Shown here: positions 8,620-23,618 of the stretch, piece after piece | Layout: the number at the start of each line of letters is the position of its first letter | How positions within the stretch are numbered: position 1 is the first letter of the stretch | Source of the DNA: Natronomonas halophila | GTDB taxonomy: Archaea; Halobacteriota; Halobacteria; Halobacteriales; Haloarculaceae | NCBI RefSeq assembly: GCF_013391085.1 | Contig: NZ_CP058334.1 | Location: 2,790,001 to 2,854,000, forward strand | Direction: 5' to 3' | Length of the DNA: 64,000 nucleotides | The notes under the pieces: generated by a model | Seen by the model: the letters and a program-made list of their open reading frames with translations, nothing else | Told to the model about the DNA's origin: nothing | The model's database searches: none | Program-made: the position numbers and the translations under genes

Positions 8620-9549
8620 ATGGCACGGAACGAAGCGGAACCGGAAGCAAAGGCGGGGGTCGAGGACGCGGACCTCTCCGGCAAAACGGTCCTCGTCACG
8701 GGGTCGACAAGCGGCGTCGGACGGGAGGCAGCCCGTTCCTTCGGCCGCCTCGGCGCGGACGTTATCGTCCACGGCCGCCGCGAGGAAGCCGGCAACAAAG
8801 TCGTCGAGGAAATCGAAGCCTCGGGCAGCAGCGCCGAGTTCATCGCCGCGGACTTCGCCGACGTCGATGCGGTCGACGCGCTCGTCGAGAGCGTTCAGGA
8901 ATCGGTCGACGAACTCGATATCCTCTGTAACAACGCTGGCGGCCTCTTCCGGGACGCCGGGACGACCGACCTCGGCGTCGAGATGACCTTCCACGTCAAC
9001 CACCTCTCGCCGTATCAACTCACCACCGGCCTCCTCGAAACGCTCGCCGAGGACGCTCGCGTGGTGACGACGGCGTCTATCGGCCACCGCGGGGCGACGC
9101 TGAACCTCGACCGCGTCGTCGAACTGGCCGGTCTCTCACCGTGGGCCGCCTACTGCCGGTCGAAACTCGCGAACATCCAGTTCTCGAACGAACTCGCCCG
9201 TCGGCTGGAGGCGGCCGACAGCGACGTGACCTCGAACTCCTTCCATCCGGGTCTCATCCCCGGCAGCGAGTTCTCCCGGGGGTTCATCGCGCCGACGAAG
9301 GGCGTGACCGACTTCCTGAAGACACTTCCCGTCGGCGACACGCCGAAGGACGGCGCCGCGACGATGGTCTATCTCGGCGCCTCCGAGGAGACAGCGGACG
9401 TCTCGGGTAAGTACTTCGCACGCTGTCGGCAGCGCCGCGCCGCCCCCTCCGCGCGCGATGAAGAAGCGATGGCTGAACTGTGGGAACGGAGCGCTGATTT
9501 GCTCGATATCGAGGAACCGCTCGCCGACGCAGTTCAGTCGGGGAGATAG
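8620..9549 (+). CDS. Short-chain dehydrogenase/reductase
   Basis: The 309-residue protein has a short charged leader, then a classical SDR fold: cofactor loop VLVTGSTSGVGREAAR (TGxxxGxG, about residues 26-33), NADP-type basic HGRREE after strand 2, CNNAGG after strand 4, catalytic serine in VVTTASIGHRG, and catalytic YCRSK (about 178-182). The sequence is most like the retinol dehydrogenase/WW-oxidoreductase-like branch (HVNHLSPYQLTTGLLE), which acts on a wide range of alcohols and ketones. The substrate is unknown. It is the last host gene before the integrated element. Confidence 0.88.
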   Translation: MARNEAEPEAKAGVEDADLSGKTVLVTGSTSGVGREAARSFGRLGADVIVHGRREEAGNKVVEEIEASGSSAEFIAADFADVDAVDALVESVQESVDELDILCNNAGGLFRDAGTTDLGVEMTFHVNHLSPYQLTTGLLETLAEDARVVTTASIGHRGATLNLDRVVELAGLSPWAAYCRSKLANIQFSNELARRLEAADSDVTSNSFHPGLIPGSEFSRGFIAPTKGVTDFLKTLPVGDTPKDGAATMVYLGASEETADVSGKYFARCRQRRAAPSARDEEAMAELWERSADLLDIEEPLADAVQSGR

Positions 9550-9689
9550 TCGACCCCGAAACAAAGTGAATGACTGCTGTCTATCGAACGTAGCGAATTG
9601 AAAAGCAAGTGGGTTCGGGCAGACACGAATAATCCGTCCGCTGCCTGCCGATTCGATTCGTTCCGCTCGTGATGTTGACATACTTGTGA

Positions 9690-10775
9690 TCATGCTTCTT
9701 CTCCGTTGATGTGGCTGAGTTCGTCGATTTCGTGACCGAGGTTGAGTCGGCTCAGTTCCGGCGCCCGGCGCTTCCGAAGCGCCTTCATCGGGTCCGGCTT
9801 GTCGTAGTGGTCTTCGATGACGTCGACCGAGACGTTCGCGCGCTCGGAGACGGTCGTCATCGAGACGCCCTGGTTGAGTTGCCAAGTAATCGAGCCCGTC
9901 CGAATCTGATGGGGGCTGCGGGTAGACGGGCACTTGCTGATGGAGTCGCTACTCCAGTATTCGCAGGCCTGGTCGGGCCGATCGTGTGGGCAGGGGTCCC
10001 GGAGACACGGCGCCGTTCCGAAGTACGAATCGGTACGGATCGTGGTTCGCGACGCTCGCCCAACCGACGTCGTGAAGAGGGGTTTGCGCCCGTTCTCGTC
10101 ACGGACGCGGTTCCGGTTGAACTTGAGATACTCGTCGAGGAGGTCGGCGACCCGCTCCGAGAGCCAAACCGGGCGTTCGCCGTCCTCCTTGTTCTTCAGC
10201 GGGGTGCCGCTCTCGGGTCGGTGCCGGAAGTAGAGGTACCGAATCCGAGACCCATCGGCCCCTTCAACGTCGTTGTAGTCGCGCAAGTCGAGCGCTCGAA
10301 GGCCGCCCATCCGGCAGCCGATGTGCCAGAGGAGTTCGAGGACGATGTGCCGTCGCGAAGCCCGGTGCTCCTCATTGTTCCGGTAGAACGCGAGTTGCGG
10401 GAGGGCGTCCTCGTCATCGAGTTTGATGTCGCTCGATTTCTGTTGCTTCGGAACGTCCGGCGGGTTGACGGCCTCCACGACCTCCTCGGAAACGAGCCCG
10501 CGGGAGGCGCACCATTCGAGCCAGTTCTGGATGGTTCCGAACTGCTTGTTCAGCGACAGAAGCTTGATCTTCGACCGCCGTTCGGCTTCGAACTCTTCGA
10601 TAGTCCACGGTGTCACGTCCTCCAACTGCTCGATGTCGTTCTCCTCGCACCACTCCCAGAACTGCTTCAGTCTGTAGTAGAGGGTGGAGATCGAGGAATC
10701 ACTCGATGGGCCGCGCTTTCGGTCAAGCCAGCGCTCGGCGGCCTCCCGAACGGTGAGATCGGGCGTGCCGGTCAT
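9690..10775 (-). CDS. Tyrosine recombinase (site-specific integrase)
   Basis: The 361-residue protein has a SAM-like core-binding domain (about 1-115) and a catalytic domain. Visible catalytic residues are the first Arg in LLWHIGCRMGGLRALD (about 158), the H-x-x-R box SPHQIRTGSITW (about 291-294), and the nucleophile Tyr in VIEDHYDKPD (about 320). A Cys/His cluster (CLRDPCPHDRPDQAC) sits between, as in many haloarchaeal integrases, and may bind zinc. The gene appears intact. It would insert or excise the 9.6-16.2 kb element, probably at tRNA-Thr. The start ATG at 10775 is the first in frame. Confidence 0.92.
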   Translation of the reverse strand: MTGTPDLTVREAAERWLDRKRGPSSDSSISTLYYRLKQFWEWCEENDIEQLEDVTPWTIEEFEAERRSKIKLLSLNKQFGTIQNWLEWCASRGLVSEEVVEAVNPPDVPKQQKSSDIKLDDEDALPQLAFYRNNEEHRASRRHIVLELLWHIGCRMGGLRALDLRDYNDVEGADGSRIRYLYFRHRPESGTPLKNKEDGERPVWLSERVADLLDEYLKFNRNRVRDENGRKPLFTTSVGRASRTTIRTDSYFGTAPCLRDPCPHDRPDQACEYWSSDSISKCPSTRSPHQIRTGSITWQLNQGVSMTTVSERANVSVDVIEDHYDKPDPMKALRKRRAPELSRLNLGHEIDELSHINGEEA

Positions 10776-11406: not shown

Positions 11407-12135
11407 TCAGTCAGATCGGTCAGTATCCGTGCTGTCCGTGAGGCTGTTTCCGCCGTCAGTCGCCGGAAACAACCCGCGCCGTTGATGCTCGCGGTTCAGA
11501 TTCCCGACCGAGATTTTGTACGCCTGCTCGACGGCGTTCTCCATACCTGCCGGCCCGACCTTCCGCCAGCGCGGGCGGGTAGGATACCACGCCTTCGCGC
11601 CGATGGTCGCGGCCTTGTGGTGGCTGTTGCAGTCCATCGAGACGACGTTCTCGACCCACAGGTCGGCAAGCACGCGGTGCTGTTGATGCGGCGTCCCGCC
11701 GAGAATGTGGATGTCGTGGTGCGTCTCGCGGTACTTGCGGCGTTTGATGTCGGTCCCGCCGTAGTCGGTCGGGGTCGAATAGCCGACGACACACCAATCG
11801 GGGACGTGCGCGAGGTCGCCGGGCGACTTCGGGACGACGATGACGTTCTCGGCGTGCGGCCGAAGCCGCCCCGCTCGGTTGTTCACCGCTGCCACGTTAT
11901 CCTCGTCGCGGAGGTAATCGCCCGCAATCACGTACTTCGGCGTGTGCTCGCGGGCTTTCTCGACCAACAGGTCCGGTTGTGGGTCTTCCCAGTGCATATC
12001 GAGGAAGTCGACCGAGATGCCGCGGACTTCGTACTCGCCGAGTTTGTCGAGTCGAGCGCCGCGGAGGTAGCCGTATTCGGCGGCGTACTCGGTGAGGTCC
12101 GGCCGCCCCGTCGTGATAATATCAACAGAGGGCAC
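11407..12135 (-). CDS. DpdA/TGT-superfamily-like protein, putative DNA 7-deazaguanine transglycosylase
   Basis: I chose GTG 12135 because GGAGGT lies 8 nt upstream; the 242-residue protein then starts MPSVDIITTGRPDL. The pattern fits the TIM barrel of tRNA-guanine transglycosylases and the DNA-acting DpdA enzymes: strands ending in VIAGDYL and VVPKSP, WCVVGYSTPTDYGG, then HILGGTPHQQHRVLADLWV and VVSMDCNSHHKAA, where the Asp would be the nucleophile. It is much shorter than tRNA enzymes and has no PUA domain, as expected for a DNA enzyme. It overlaps the QueF homologue by 14 nt. Together they suggest insertion of a preQ0-derived base into element DNA. The family call is from motifs and context. 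Confidence 0.65.
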   Translation of the reverse strand: MPSVDIITTGRPDLTEYAAEYGYLRGARLDKLGEYEVRGISVDFLDMHWEDPQPDLLVEKAREHTPKYVIAGDYLRDEDNVAAVNNRAGRLRPHAENVIVVPKSPGDLAHVPDWCVVGYSTPTDYGGTDIKRRKYRETHHDIHILGGTPHQQHRVLADLWVENVVSMDCNSHHKAATIGAKAWYPTRPRWRKVGPAGMENAVEQAYKISVGNLNREHQRRGLFPATDGGNSLTDSTDTDRSD

Positions 12136-12469
12136 GGTCGCCCACCTCCACAGTCTCCTCGATGCCACCGCGACGTGCCTGTTCCAGTCGGATGTACAGG
12201 CGCTCCGGCACGATGGCGTCTTCGATGGCGCGGTACAGGGCGTCGGCCAGGCGTTCGGCGGTGATCTCCTCGTCGCGGTAGGATTCGAGCCGCTGTTTCA
12301 GCGACCGCGATTCGAGGCAGTAGTCCGCCGGCTCGTATTTGATAACGAGCGTGTAGTGGTCCGGGCCGCCGAAGTCGAAGGGGCACAGCGCCGTGAGTTC
12401 GTCTGTCTCGAAGGTCGTCACCTGCTCCGACGGCGGCGCCTCGAATCGCTCCATATCTTTCTCAGGCAT
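12122..12469 (-). CDS. QueF-family protein (7-cyano-7-deazaguanine reductase or amidino-transferase)
   Basis: The 115-residue protein is a short, unimodal QueF. The catalytic Cys is in LTALCPFD (Cys29), the Asp in GGPDHY (Asp37), and the substrate/NADPH segment is CLESRSLKQRLESY (Glu53, like ESKSLKxY of QueF), followed by the late RGGIEETVEVGD region. QueF reduces preQ0 to preQ1; archaeal QueF-like proteins instead make archaeosine on tRNA. The NADPH-type motif is kept, so reductase activity is plausible. Related genes occur in haloviruses with 7-deazaguanine in their DNA. It sits in the overlapping cluster next to a DpdA-like gene. GGAGGG precedes the ATG. Confidence 0.82.
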   Translation of the reverse strand: MPEKDMERFEAPPSEQVTTFETDELTALCPFDFGGPDHYTLVIKYEPADYCLESRSLKQRLESYRDEEITAERLADALYRAIEDAIVPERLYIRLEQARRGGIEETVEVGDRALC

Positions 12470-12722
12470 GGTGTCCCTCCTGTGGTTCGGCGTAGGCCGT
12501 GCAGTCGGGACACGGGGCGTCCGTCTTCACGACCCAAATCCATCCGTCATCGTTACACCGCTCGCACGGGTCAGGGCCGACGTTCCAGTCGTTTCCACAG
12601 TCGGGGCAAGCAGCCCGTCGCCCCTCGTCGACTAGCTGGGCAGGCGACCCACACCCCATACAGACGTGAGACCGCGACCGCTTCATGCCGTCCACAGATT
12701 GACCGGTCTGGTCTCCGCTCAT
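12462..12722 (-). CDS. Small protein with multiple zinc-ribbon motifs
   Basis: The 86-residue protein has paired cysteines: CMGCGSP (about 21-24), CPDCGND (39-42), CERCNDDGW (53-56) and CPDCTAY (70-73), so it can bind two or more zinc ions. It overlaps the QueF homologue downstream (8 nt) and the next zinc protein upstream (4 nt, ATGA), with GGAGGT six nt before the ATG. Such proteins in haloviral operons are usually DNA- or RNA-binding or adaptors, but no function is established. Confidence 0.75.
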   Translation of the reverse strand: MSGDQTGQSVDGMKRSRSHVCMGCGSPAQLVDEGRRAACPDCGNDWNVGPDPCERCNDDGWIWVVKTDAPCPDCTAYAEPQEGHHA

Positions 12723-12964
12723 TGCGATACCTCCGTTTTTGAACCGATTACAGCAACGAAGGTTGCCGGGCAGTCCTCGCCGTCACACTCATGAACCGCT
12801 CCGTATCCCTCTACTGGCGTGAGTTCGCCAGGACAGTACGGGCAGTCTTCCCGCTTTACCTGGTCCGCGCGTGAACTAGTTTCGTGCATAGTTTCGTTAA
12901 TCGGTGTTTGTGGGTCGTCTGCGTGCTGTTCTCGCTGGTCGCTGTCGCTGGTCTCTCGGGTCAT
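12719..12964 (-). CDS. Small zinc-binding protein
   Basis: The 81-residue protein has a disordered charged N-terminal half and a C-terminal zinc ribbon: CPYCPGELTPVEG (about 42-45) and HECDGEDCPATF (about 59-64). It starts inside the last codons of the MCM gene (ATGA overlap), so translation is coupled. Its position after the helicase hints at a replication or DNA-modification accessory role, which is inference only. Confidence 0.7.
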   Translation of the reverse strand: MTRETSDSDQREQHADDPQTPINETMHETSSRADQVKREDCPYCPGELTPVEGYGAVHECDGEDCPATFVAVIGSKTEVSQ

Positions 12965-15072
12965 TCTGAGGTCCTGTAGTGCTCGGATTTCGGCTCGTAA
13001 ATCGCGCCTTTCTCTTTCAGATTCGTGATGCTCTTCTCGACGTCAGAGCGGTCGTAGCCCTCGTCTTCGCCCAGCTCGACGACCGCCTCATGGGGCGCGC
13101 CCATCCGCTCTTCTTCCTCCAGGTCGCCGATGATGTCTTTAATCAGGTCGATGCGGTCGCGCTGGGACTTCGAGCGTCCGGTTTCCTTGATATCGGCATC
13201 GAACTCCCCCGTCTCGGGGTCGATGCCGACGTCTTCCAGACACCGCCGATGGATGGCGATGGCCCGCGTAGCGTCTTCCTCGCTAATCTGCTCGGAGAGC
13301 CGAACGCGAGCGCTGGCTTCCGCCAGTCGAATCAGCGCCTCGGTCATGCGGGCGGTCGTCGGGATCGGGCCGTCATCGTCGTTGGCCGTCCGGAGGTCGA
13401 CGTACTCGTCGGTGATGCGCTGAATCGCCTCCTTCGTCAGGACGGGGTTCAGTTGCCGTGCGTGCGCGATGTAGGCCTGCATCACCTCCGGCTCGATAGC
13501 CGGCGTCGCCGACTCCGCGTCGTCGACGCTGTATTCGTCGTTGGCAATCTTCTGGCCGACCTGGGCCACCTTCGTCATGTGGGAGGCGATTTCGCGGTCC
13601 TGCTCGGCATCCGGCGAATCCGACACCGTGAACACGAGGTCGAACCGCGAGAAAATCGCCGGATCAAGCTCGATTTGCTCGGCGACGGGGTCGTACTGGT
13701 CGAACCGGCCATCGCGGGGGTTCGCGGCCGCCAGCACCGTCGTCTTCGCCGGCAGCGTCGCGTTGATGCCGGCCTTCGAGATGCTAATCTCCTGCTCGCT
13801 CATCGCCTGCATCACGCCCGACTGGTCCTCGTCGTCCATCTTGTCGAACTCGTCAATCGCCGCGAGGCCTTTGTGAGCCTCCACGAGCGCGCCCGCGTCG
13901 ATGGTCCAGCCACCGTCGCCGAAGTCGTCCTGCACCGCGGCGCCGGTGAGGCCAGCGGCGGTCGACTGCTTCCCGCTGGTGTAGACCGCCCGCGGCGACA
14001 GGCGCTTCGCATACCGGAGAAGTGCTGACTTCCCACAGCCAGGGTCGCCGACGATGAGAATGTGCATCGTCCCGCGCTTGTGTGCGCCGTCCGGGAGCTG
14101 TTTCTCGACGCCGCCGAACATCTGGTAGGCGATGGCCTCCTTGATGGCGTCGTAACCACGGATGGACGGCGCTATCGAGTCGACGATGGTCTCGATAGGG
14201 TTCGGCTTCGAAGCGATCTCCTTGATGCGGTCGAGGTGTTCCTCAATCTCGATATCATCGAAGTCAGCCTCCAGCATGTCGATGGACTCGCCCTTGACCT
14301 CCAGGTCCAGCAGCCGGGTCGGCTGCTGGCCGTTGTACTGGAGTTCGGACTCCACGCGACCGTTGATGACCGCGCGGTCGCCCGGCGTCACCTCGTCGAC
14401 GAGGTCGCCATGCAGGACGGCGTCAATCGTCTCGTCGGTCGCCGTCGCAGCCTTCTCCGGCGGCAGTTGCAGCCGAACGCGCTGGTGGGAGTGTTTCTCA
14501 GTCTGGTCGGCGTTCTTTTTGAACTTGAACGGTCCTTGGCGCTCGCAGTTCTGACACTCTCGCGGCTCGTCGAGCGAGTCATCCGAGGACTGCGGGACGA
14601 TGGTGTAGTTCCCACAGCGGACGCATTCGAACGCCGCCGTCTCGATAATCTGTTTCTTCTGCGTACGCTTGGCAACTTGGCCGCGAATGCCGGCGAGGCT
14701 ACCGTCAATCGCATCGAGTTGGTAGTCGCCGACATCATAGACGGCGTGGTCGGGGAGGTCGGTGACCCGGACGTCCAGGGCGTTTCGCTGGAGTTCGATG
14801 GTGTCGCCGGTCTCGTGGTCGGTCCACGACCAGTCGATGCTCGCGAGACCCGTCACGAGGTCGTAACACACGCGGTCGGGCGCAACGAGGTAGTCTTCGG
14901 CGAGGTCGCTGTCCCATCGGAACAGTTTCGAGTAGCTGACCTCGAAGACGTTCCGGGTGTCGGGGTCGTAGGCTTCGAGGAACTTCCCGAGCTCGGACTC
15001 GTAGTACGTCCGATAGAACGACGAGAGTCGTTCCGGGTCATCGACGACCCCGCGGTTGGACTCAACAGACAC
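12961..15072 (-). CDS. mcm: MCM replicative DNA helicase (element-encoded)
   Basis: The 703-residue protein has the full MCM layout: an N-terminal OB region with a zinc site (CVRCGN at about 157, and CQNCERQG at about 181), then the AAA+ core with Walker A GDPGCGKSALLRY (about 343), Walker B LAAIDEFDKMD (about 405), sensor 1 AAANPRDGRFD and arginine finger IFSRFDLVF. The C-terminal winged-helix part (about 640-703: VVELGEDEGYDRSDVEKSI) is present. It would unwind DNA in front of a replication fork. I chose GTG 15072 because GGAGGTG lies 7 nt upstream. The gene lies on an integrated element and is therefore probably its own helicase, not the host one. Confidence 0.93.
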   Translation of the reverse strand: MSVESNRGVVDDPERLSSFYRTYYESELGKFLEAYDPDTRNVFEVSYSKLFRWDSDLAEDYLVAPDRVCYDLVTGLASIDWSWTDHETGDTIELQRNALDVRVTDLPDHAVYDVGDYQLDAIDGSLAGIRGQVAKRTQKKQIIETAAFECVRCGNYTIVPQSSDDSLDEPRECQNCERQGPFKFKKNADQTEKHSHQRVRLQLPPEKAATATDETIDAVLHGDLVDEVTPGDRAVINGRVESELQYNGQQPTRLLDLEVKGESIDMLEADFDDIEIEEHLDRIKEIASKPNPIETIVDSIAPSIRGYDAIKEAIAYQMFGGVEKQLPDGAHKRGTMHILIVGDPGCGKSALLRYAKRLSPRAVYTSGKQSTAAGLTGAAVQDDFGDGGWTIDAGALVEAHKGLAAIDEFDKMDDEDQSGVMQAMSEQEISISKAGINATLPAKTTVLAAANPRDGRFDQYDPVAEQIELDPAIFSRFDLVFTVSDSPDAEQDREIASHMTKVAQVGQKIANDEYSVDDAESATPAIEPEVMQAYIAHARQLNPVLTKEAIQRITDEYVDLRTANDDDGPIPTTARMTEALIRLAEASARVRLSEQISEEDATRAIAIHRRCLEDVGIDPETGEFDADIKETGRSKSQRDRIDLIKDIIGDLEEEERMGAPHEAVVELGEDEGYDRSDVEKSITNLKEKGAIYEPKSEHYRTSE

Positions 15073-15238: not shown

Positions 15239-15901
15239 CTATTTCACTCGTTCTGCGGGGTTACCCTGCACTAACCCGGTAGTAGCATCGCTACTGGGGC
15301 GTTCAACGGCGCTATCCTGGTAGGACGGCAGTTCGGCTGGGTCGATCTCCGTGACGTCGACCTTCACGGCCATTACCTCGTGGCCGTTCGGGTTCGTCTT
15401 CGTCGTCATCGCGAAGCCGGCGCCGGGCTGGAACGACGCTGGCGCGTGTTCCTCCTCACCCGACGCCCACTTCATCGCCTTGTAGCAATCCGGCTTCGAG
15501 ACCTCGCCGTGGCCGGTACGCGCGAAGAACTGCTGGACGTCTTCCCACCACATCTGGCTCTTCTGGTCGTGGGAATCGCCGCGTTCTTCGGCATCCCGAA
15601 TTAGCGCCAGCCGCAGGTCGTTGGCGCGTTTCTCGGGGTTGCTATCCTTCGCATCGTCGACACCGACAACACTATCGAGTTTCCGTTCTAATTCCGTGAC
15701 GCGGGACTGGAGCGCGTCGACGGCAGCCTGGAGCTCGACCCGCTCTTGACGGGCGTCATCGCGTTCGGCTGCCGCCGACTGCTTTTGCGGCTGATAGACG
15801 TTCTCCTTCCAGGCATCGTGGTCGTTCTGCACGAACTCGATGTACTCTTCGAGTTCGTCCAGCCGCTCGCGAAGTTCCTCGCAGTCTTCGCAGGCCGTCA
15901 T
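15239..15901 (-). CDS. Coiled-coil protein of the element, unknown function
   Basis: The 220-residue protein begins with CEDCEELRERLDELEEY, a possible zinc pair followed by a long coiled coil to about residue 80 (ELQAAVDALQSRVTELERKL). Residues about 95-150 resemble a winged helix (MWWEDVQQFFARTGHGEVSKPDCYKAM), and the last third is a beta-rich tail. A complete Shine-Dalgarno (GGAGGTGATC) precedes the ATG. Its start overlaps the stop of the 44-codon ORF upstream. The combination suggests a DNA-binding or replication-accessory protein of the element, for example a regulator or segregation factor. I do not recognise a family. Confidence 0.7.
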   Translation of the reverse strand: MTACEDCEELRERLDELEEYIEFVQNDHDAWKENVYQPQKQSAAAERDDARQERVELQAAVDALQSRVTELERKLDSVVGVDDAKDSNPEKRANDLRLALIRDAEERGDSHDQKSQMWWEDVQQFFARTGHGEVSKPDCYKAMKWASGEEEHAPASFQPGAGFAMTTKTNPNGHEVMAVKVDVTEIDPAELPSYQDSAVERPSSDATTGLVQGNPAERVK

Positions 15902-16206: not shown

Positions 16207-16280
16207 AGCCAGGGGTGGGATTTGAACCCACGAACTCCCGATTACAAGTCGGGTGCTTGGACCACCCAAGCTCCCCTGGC
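16207..16280 (-). tRNA. tRNA-Thr (TGT anticodon)
   Basis: The reverse strand folds into a full cloverleaf: acceptor GCCAGGG paired with CCCTGGC, anticodon stem CCCGA/TCGGG with loop CTTGTAA (anticodon TGT), T-arm GTGGG-TTCAAAT-CCCAC and discriminator T at 16207. The anticodon and the U discriminator fit threonine. No CCA is encoded and no intron is seen. The 3' end faces the integrated element, as expected if the recombinase targets this tRNA. Confidence 0.95.
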
Positions 16281-22382: not shown

Positions 22383-23618
22383 TTACTGACCGAACGCGAC
22401 GGAGTCGACTTCGGTGAAGTCGCGGTCCTGAACCTCGTAGATACCGTAGGAGACGGCGACCATGTCACCGTTGTCGTCGAAGTTCGTCGCCGACGAGGCA
22501 CCCTGGTAGTTGATGTCGTCGCCGGCGTCGGCGGCCTCGATGGCCTCCGCGAGTTCGCCGGGGCCGAACTCCTCGCCTTCGGGGTTGGCGGCCCGCCGCA
22601 TGTTGTCGCGGACGCCGGTCCCATCGTTTTCGCCGGCGTAGACGTTCGCGAGCAGACAGATGGCGGTTCCGTCGTACGCCTGGGCGTTGAAGACGCCGGG
22701 TGCGCGGTCGTACTCGTTCTCGTAGAGTTCGTCGAAGGTCTCGCGGCCGGGACCGCTGGATTTCGGCGCGGTACCGGTCACGTTGGCCATGTCGTTGTCG
22801 ACGTTGTCCGGGAGTTCGTTGTCGATGAGGCCGTCCGTGACGACGATGTCCTCGCCGCTGTCGAAGTCGCTGTAGTAGTCACGGAACAGCTGGTTCCCCG
22901 ACTCGGGGTAGCCGATGACGACCAGTAGGCTCGGGCTGTCGTTGAGCGCGGACTCCAGCTGGGAGGTGTAGGAGCTCTGCTGCTGCTCGAAGGAGACCTG
23001 CTGTTTGACCTCGCCGTCGTATTCGCTTTCGAACGTGTCGGCGAACGATTGCGAGAGCGCCTGCCCGTAGTCGTTGTTGACGTACATCGTCGCGGCGTCG
23101 GAGTTGCCGAGTTCTTCGGCGCCGACCTGCGCGATGACCTGTCCCTGCAGGGCGTCGGACGGGCACGTCCGATAGATATAGTCGTCGTCTTCGAGAGTCG
23201 TCACCGCAGGCGCCGTGGAGGACGGCGAACAGCCGACCGTCGAGTTCGGGATGAGCGACTGCTGGGTCACCTGCAGGTTCACACCCGAGGAGGCCGGCCC
23301 CGTAACTGCCGGATAGCCCGCGTCAATGAGGGCGTCGGCCCCGGAGATACCGGCTTGCGGGTTCGTCTCCGTGTCCTCCTCGCTGATGTCGATGGTGTAG
23401 TCGGTTTCGCCTTCCAGTTCCGCGGCCGGCAGAATGGCGCCGTCACGGATGGGCTGACCGAGGTTCGCGAGGTCGCCCGAAAGCGGGAGCAGGACCCCCT
23501 GTTTGAGCGCGCGGCTTCCGTTGCCGTTCCCGCCGCCGAGACAGCCGGCGAACGCGACGGTGGCCCCAGCGGCCCCGGCACCCTTCAATACATCACGTCG
23601 TTTGACGTTGCGTGGCAT
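22383..23618 (-). CDS. livK: Branched-chain amino acid ABC transporter substrate-binding lipoprotein
   Basis: The 411-residue protein has a Tat signal with twin Arg (MPRNVKRRDVLKGAG) and a lipobox AFAGCLGG, the usual haloarchaeal route to a membrane-anchored binding protein outside the cell. The mature part has the periplasmic-binding fold of Leu/Ile/Val receptors: GVLLPLSGDLANLGQPIRDG, VTGPASSGVNLQVTQQ, and TCPSDALQGQVIAQ. It faces the livHMGF operon tail to tail, so it has its own promoter (TATA-like TTTATAAG at 23645-23652, about 30 nt upstream). Substrate is likely branched-chain amino acids or urea/amide. Confidence 0.92.
   Translation of the reverse strand: MPRNVKRRDVLKGAGAAGATVAFAGCLGGGNGNGSRALKQGVLLPLSGDLANLGQPIRDGAILPAAELEGETDYTIDISEEDTETNPQAGISGADALIDAGYPAVTGPASSGVNLQVTQQSLIPNSTVGCSPSSTAPAVTTLEDDDYIYRTCPSDALQGQVIAQVGAEELGNSDAATMYVNNDYGQALSQSFADTFESEYDGEVKQQVSFEQQQSSYTSQLESALNDSPSLLVVIGYPESGNQLFRDYYSDFDSGEDIVVTDGLIDNELPDNVDNDMANVTGTAPKSSGPGRETFDELYENEYDRAPGVFNAQAYDGTAICLLANVYAGENDGTGVRDNMRRAANPEGEEFGPGELAEAIEAADAGDDINYQGASSATNFDDNGDMVAVSYGIYEVQDRDFTEVDSVAFGQ

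Follow-up and report, generated by a model that had tools for sequence, protein, structure and literature searches.

The gene pair and the element that carries it

The window analysed here, a 64,000-nucleotide stretch of the Natronomonas halophila genome, contains within positions 11407-12469 two overlapping open reading frames on the minus strand. The upstream frame (12122..12469) encodes a 115-residue protein, identified as a QueF-like 7-cyano-7-deazaguanine reductase by Pfam, TIGR03139, a PDB match and alignment; the downstream frame (11407..12135), which begins with GTG, encodes a 242-residue DUF6610 protein characterized by its Pfam match, by an AF2 model, by residue conservation and by its homologue gp69 in the virus HVTV-1. 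According to the ORF coordinates, the 3′ end of QueF and the start of DUF6610 share 14 nt (12122..12135, minus strand), an overlap that may provide translational coupling. The presence of both ORFs and the Pfam match of the first one to QueF bear out the first-pass annotation, which had described a 115-residue QueF homologue with Cys29, Asp37 and Glu53 overlapping a 242-residue ORF that contains the segment HILGG...SMDCN.

The pair closes a longer run of minus-strand genes, the first of which encodes an MCM replicative helicase of the plasmid/virus type (703 aa; 12961..15072; Pfam MCM, 1.7e-84; phrog_10371, 2e-195) and the last of which is DUF6610, with QueF just upstream of it. Between helicase and QueF lie the genes of an 81-aa Cys-rich protein (12719..12964; ORF list and Pfam search), which shares 4 nt with its neighbours, and of an 86-aa zinc-ribbon protein (12462..12722; weak zinc-ribbon matches below the cut-offs), which overlaps QueF by 8 nt. 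Given the overlaps of 4 to 8 nt among MCM, the two small Cys-rich ORFs and QueF, the series MCM-zn-zn-QueF-DUF6610 can be read as a single operon. A 220-aa coiled-coil protein of the element is encoded at 15239..15901, likewise on the minus strand (ORF list and Pfam search).

That these genes belong to an integrated element, as first proposed, is well supported by an integrase, by a tRNA-Thr edge and by synteny, the ends being not fully fixed. A XerC-like tyrosine recombinase (9690..10775, minus strand; phrog_1 integrase, 2e-25) stands at the left end, and the inserted DNA is bounded on the right by the 3′ end of a tRNA-Thr(TGT) gene (16207..16280, minus strand), recognised by ARAGORN and by synteny within the genus. 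Synteny with relatives of the genus ends at 9527 on the left and resumes on the right at the tRNA-Thr 3′ end (16206/16207), so that the foreign segment amounts to at most ~6.7 kb. An attachment-site repeat was looked for at the element ends and none was found. The two flanks are not adjacent to each other in the relatives, where the SDR gene of the left flank (window 9527-9690 boundary) is followed by tRNA-Val or by another integrase instead of the element integrase found here, indicating that a rearrangement between element and chromosome has occurred. Elsewhere in the host genome there are two 99.9% identical copies (~438.7-450.8 kb and 479.9-492.0 kb) of a segment no shorter than 12,074 bp, each containing an integrase 58% identical to that of the window; the two copies are a recent duplication of another element.

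The same pair, in the same order and with the same 14-nt overlap, occurs on a free 47.6 kb plasmid of Natronosalvus halobius (NZ_CP099999). Amino acid identity between window and plasmid is 81% for QueF and 69% for DUF6610 but only 41% for MCM, from which it can be deduced that QueF-DUF6610 travels as a module. Comparison of the two pairs yields a dN/dS of 0.18 for QueF and 0.22 for DUF6610, and these values of ~0.2, together with the recurrence of both pair and overlap on the plasmid, identify QueF and DUF6610 as real, selected genes. The missing attachment repeat and the rearranged flanks would also suit a decaying relic whose genes no longer act; however, the intact overlapping ORFs, the dN/dS and the invariant catalytic-type residues described below render such a decay hardly credible.

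Sequence and predicted structure of QueF and DUF6610

QueF scores 48.6 bits against Pfam QueF PF14489 (E 1e-12), above the curated cut-off of 27.3 bits, and 65.3 bits against TIGR03139 (QueF-II; E 4e-18), which is below the 86.9-bit equivalog cut-off. C29 in ALCPFD, D37 in GGPDHY, E53 in ESRSLK and E72 are invariant in the QueF alignment and correspond to the catalytic Cys and Asp, to the ESxSLK NADPH motif and to the preQ0-binding Glu. The His of the His-Glu pair is absent, T-A-E standing where bacterial QueF (B. subtilis) has F-H-E, and the alignment reveals the same loss in the Natronosalvus plasmid QueF and in a second type of QueF from BRC defence loci (see below). The latter is also the nearest relative of the window QueF, plasmid QueF aside (56-62% identity).

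This loss is a sign of an altered site in the QueF subgroup and could be taken in favor of a reversed order of events, in which DUF6610 would insert preQ0 and QueF would then reduce dPreQ0 within the DNA, leaving the same final mark. Indeed, QueF-L acts on preQ0-tRNA (PMC5485725), and the authors who studied HVTV-1 could not exclude insertion of preQ0 followed by its reduction in DNA (PMC6884629). Against this order, which appears quite improbable, speak the ESxSLK motif and a similarity closer to NADPH-dependent QueF, the closest solved structure (7e-5), than to QueF-L, which comes second (0.0087). Furthermore, reduction of the free base is the rule for bacterial QueF.

The 242-aa ORF matches Pfam DUF6610 (E 1.1e-41), a family outside Pfam TGT, and no TGT or DpdA profile match (PF01702, DpdA models) was obtained for it in Pfam, NCBIfam or PADLOC; the HMM search thus recovered QueF as expected but assigned its partner to DUF6610 and not to TGT/DpdA. 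The AF2 model of the window protein (53 sequences; pLDDT 75.6, pTM 0.72, core mostly >90 pLDDT) is a (β/α)8 barrel with eight alternating strand-helix units, and this predicted fold can be regarded as well supported. The residues conserved in the family are D46, D73, P102-K103, G118, H143-x-L-G-G-x-P and D168, with D46, D73 and D168 each missing from at most one of the 53 homologues. In the model D46, D73, K103, G118, HxLGG and D168 sit on strands 3, 4, 5, 6, 7 and 8, the same strands that in Z. mobilis TGT carry D102, D156, Q203, G230, LMGVG and D280. D46, D73 and D168 would be placed as the active-site Asp residues of TGT, an equivalence that is one of strand order only. The zinc site, the DSGG motif and the Gln of TGT are absent from the window protein, which has DMHW and Lys/His instead and no Cys cluster; the longer, plasmid form of DUF6610 has a C-terminal Cys/His cluster (CxxC...CxxCxxxC...HRHR) resembling a zinc site, in a region of low model confidence.

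Comparisons of profiles and folds point to TGT to different extents. With hhalign, the strand 7-8 segment HILGG..MDCN of DUF6610 is aligned onto VHAFGVGG..FDTT of BRC TGT/arcTGT with an E of 0.0028, and the other alignments of DUF6610 with TGT gave 0.02-0.05, which is the level of decoys (GNAT 0.024, QueE 0.01-0.029). A sequence search of the PDB with the DUF6610 profile gave no match. Foldseek against the PDB ranks generic or sugar-isomerase-like TIM barrels first for DUF6610 models, ahead of TGT, which for the window protein is not among the first 50 hits and for the plasmid form is at rank 39; in a search of a viral structure library, entries for TGT came at ranks 7, 14, 36 and 44, an uncharacterised nt-1 protein being at rank 12. 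Of the TGT/DpdA-like barrel originally suggested, the barrel itself and the TGT-like placement of its invariant residues were recovered, with TGT/DpdA among the nearer viral-library structures, but neither a significant TGT/DpdA sequence match nor a PDB ranking of TGT above generic barrels was obtained. The TGT affiliation of DUF6610 is plausible, proven by neither sequence nor fold.

Genomic partners of DUF6610 and of QueF

HVTV-1 gp69 is a DUF6610 homologue (38.7% identity over 181 residues) whose gene adjoins FolE (gp70) and the QueE, QueD, QueC and QueF genes, and the DUF6610 homologue of HCTV-1 likewise adjoins FolE in a preQ0-QueF region. The DNA of HVTV-1 contains 88,607 dPreQ1 per million nt, i.e., ~30% of G, and resisted every restriction enzyme tested, yet no DpdA was recognised in this virus by its authors in 2019 (PMC6884629). 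Among mycobacteriophage records, only three (Funsized, Knocker and Rinkes) match DUF6610 and only these three match QueF. In Funsized, DUF6610 directly adjoins QueF, the gene order being ParB-like protein with a DUF6610 domain (Pfam 4.9e-32), QueF, DpdA, QueC, QueD, QueE and FolE; the ParB-like DUF6610 protein is present also in Knocker and Rinkes. There are three mutually unrelated settings in which DUF6610 is linked to QueF or to preQ0 genes.

The ParB-like protein of Funsized is the product of gene 1 (1-1299) and co-occurs with QueF and an annotated DpdA, so that this phage may possess two base-exchange enzymes or DUF6610 might have another role. The second possibility leads to an alternative in which DUF6610 is a barrel of other chemistry in the same pathway, removing, tailoring or recognising 7-deazaguanine in DNA, and insertion is left to another enzyme; a metal site might also be built from D46, D73, H143 and D168, and the nearest PDB folds, being generic or sugar-isomerase-like, would be compatible with such a role. 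On the other hand, HVTV-1 has dPreQ1 with no DpdA recognised, the element offers no other candidate inserter, the only TGT-family genes of the host are arcTGT and an ArcS-like one, and DUF6610 and TGTs share an H-x-x-G motif on strand 7, all of which makes this alternative rather unlikely.

The DUF6610 family extends well beyond these cases, with a match in 140 of 391 haloarchaeal genomes, mostly on plasmid-like contigs. At 80 sampled loci of a 333-aa form (mostly plasmid contigs) the gene is usually followed downstream by a 115-aa ORF and an ArdC-like gene, an ArdC-like anti-restriction gene being nearby in 73, and no QueF or preQ0 gene was found in the retrieved flanks of the 80 loci. If active, these 333-aa forms would draw on host preQ0, and haloarchaeal plasmids would commonly have 7-deazaguanine in their DNA. 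A search for related loci with a single DUF6610 protein or a mixed alignment gave no match; subfamily alignments did recover loci, but for the plasmid form none of the relatives was on a viral contig. Hafunaviridae such as HF1 also encode DUF6610; in the literature nothing useful was found on DNA modification in HF2.

QueF, by contrast, is present in only 11 of the 391 haloarchaeal genomes. Eight of these coincide with the full set of genomes that have a BRC-type TGT (p = 1.3e-14 for the overlap), QueF being located in the BRC locus, two have QueF beside DUF6610, namely the N. halophila element and the Natronosalvus plasmid, and one has it alone. The distribution of QueF beside either BRC TGT (8) or DUF6610 (2) suggests that DUF6610 fills the transglycosylase slot. 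The solitary QueF (genome G031, 9032-9472 of the locus) lies in a housekeeping region near proteasome alpha-like and HflX-like genes, with no TGT or DUF6610 beside it.

The same distribution bears on the possibility that the pair modifies tRNA, with QueF making preQ1 and DUF6610 acting as a tRNA transglycosylase. The precursor would be available, since haloarchaeal tRNA carries archaeosine made from preQ0; however, the 242-aa DUF6610 has neither a zinc site nor a PUA-like domain, the pair is linked with viruses that modify their DNA and with an MCM operon, and in haloarchaea QueF is found almost nowhere but in BRC defence loci and QueF-DUF6610 elements, making a tRNA substrate highly improbable. 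A function of QueF in tRNA queuosine was set aside because archaea use archaeosine in their tRNA.

In haloarchaea QueF is a regular constituent of the TGT-bearing BRC loci, being present in all 8 sampled genomes that have them, and comes in two types: the type that stands beside TGT keeps the His-Glu pair, the other has T-A/G-E. The paper of January 2026 that introduced BREX-related capture (BRC), with its TGT and GNAT, goes no further than to propose dPreQ0 and is silent on QueF (PMC12839542); the connection with QueF and the prediction of dPreQ1 therefore come from the present analysis. No BRC ORFs were found within 9.6-16.2 kb of the window (ORF list, Pfam search), and the host genome has no BRC TGT, which also gave no match in the phage collection.

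A candidate DNA-modification cassette and its relation to known systems

As to the precursor, the host genome (99.9% complete) contains arcTGT, an ArcS-like gene and the transporter YhhQ, but no QueC; three QueC-family matches were rejected as sources of preQ0 synthesis, their sequences reading as ArgG, NadE and a LarE-like PP-loop protein. Since the host lacks QueC and has YhhQ, preQ0 is probably imported, both for archaeosine and for the element. It had been suggested that the element, having no preQ0 synthesis genes, could rely on preQ0 made by the host: these genes are indeed absent from the element and supply through the host is probable, but by YhhQ import, since the host does not make preQ0 itself.

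Taken together, the data favor, with a probability of about 0.7, a minimal DNA-modification cassette in which QueF makes preQ1 and DUF6610, DpdA-like in function, inserts it into DNA. Genomic context is the strongest evidence for this function. Modification of DNA by a 7-deazaguanine, suggested from the outset, emerges as the most likely job of the pair from the linkage of DUF6610 to QueF and preQ0 genes, from the dPreQ1 of HVTV-1 and from the TGT-like placement of residues; for control of integration, the other role then suggested, we found no evidence. In the proposed pathway preQ0 would enter the host through YhhQ, normally for archaeosine, QueF with NADPH would reduce it to preQ1, and the DUF6610 barrel would exchange DNA guanine for preQ1 by an aspartate-centred base exchange, as in DpdA. 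DUF6610 is the probable inserter, preQ1 rather than preQ0 the probable inserted base, and the DNA of the element the probable target; so marked, the latter would be poorly cut by restriction enzymes. Import and restriction resistance are backed by known families and by HVTV-1, whereas the exchange step is inferred. The position of the cassette at the operon end behind a replicative helicase suggests that the mark would be laid on element DNA at replication or movement.

A disguise of DNA against restriction by preQ1 has so far been a matter mainly of viruses and of bacterial defence islands. More tentatively, and with the odds against it, DUF6610 could be a broad 7-deazaguanine writer of archaeal mobile elements, with QueF and DUF6610 counterfeiting, from imported preQ0, a preQ1 self-mark of the BRC system, whose own QueF is, plasmid QueF aside, the one that the cassette QueF most resembles. 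The analysis also predicts that preQ1 is the mark of TGT-bearing BRC loci and that mobile elements copy it. The cassette reading, for its part, would supply a likely inserter for HVTV-1, in whose heavily modified DNA the base had been reported with no such enzyme, and offers a two-gene system small enough for testing in Haloferax.

Among known systems, HVTV-1 and the Druskaviridae share DUF6610 and QueF with the element, dPreQ1 having been measured in the DNA of the virus; they differ in that the virus makes its own preQ0 (FolE, QueD, QueE, QueC), whereas the element has only QueF and DUF6610, and gp69 is longer (386 aa vs 242 aa). The Natronosalvus plasmid, like the element, has an MCM gene on the same replicon as the cassette but is free and encodes in addition a protein with DUF6884 (22435-23334 of its locus; Pfam 2.6e-11), which corresponds to the DpdC domain (PMC11888242), and downstream a protein weakly resembling PCNA. 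With the haloarchaeal BRC loci, in which QueF stands next to TGT, the element has in common a QueF, close to their second type; BRC, however, is a multi-gene defence locus, and the element is without its restriction parts. Bacterial and phage DpdA (DpdA1/DpdA2) resembles DUF6610 in its barrel, predicted for the latter, in the apparent placement of Asp residues and in genomic partners, but DUF6610 has no significant sequence match to it and is without the zinc site, DSGG and Gln motif. Finally, a subfamily DpdA4, specific to archaeal viruses, was reportedly named by Cui et al. in 2023 (NAR); DUF6610 and DpdA4 may be the same family, in which case the cassette would be a plasmid- or element-borne two-gene variant of DpdA4.
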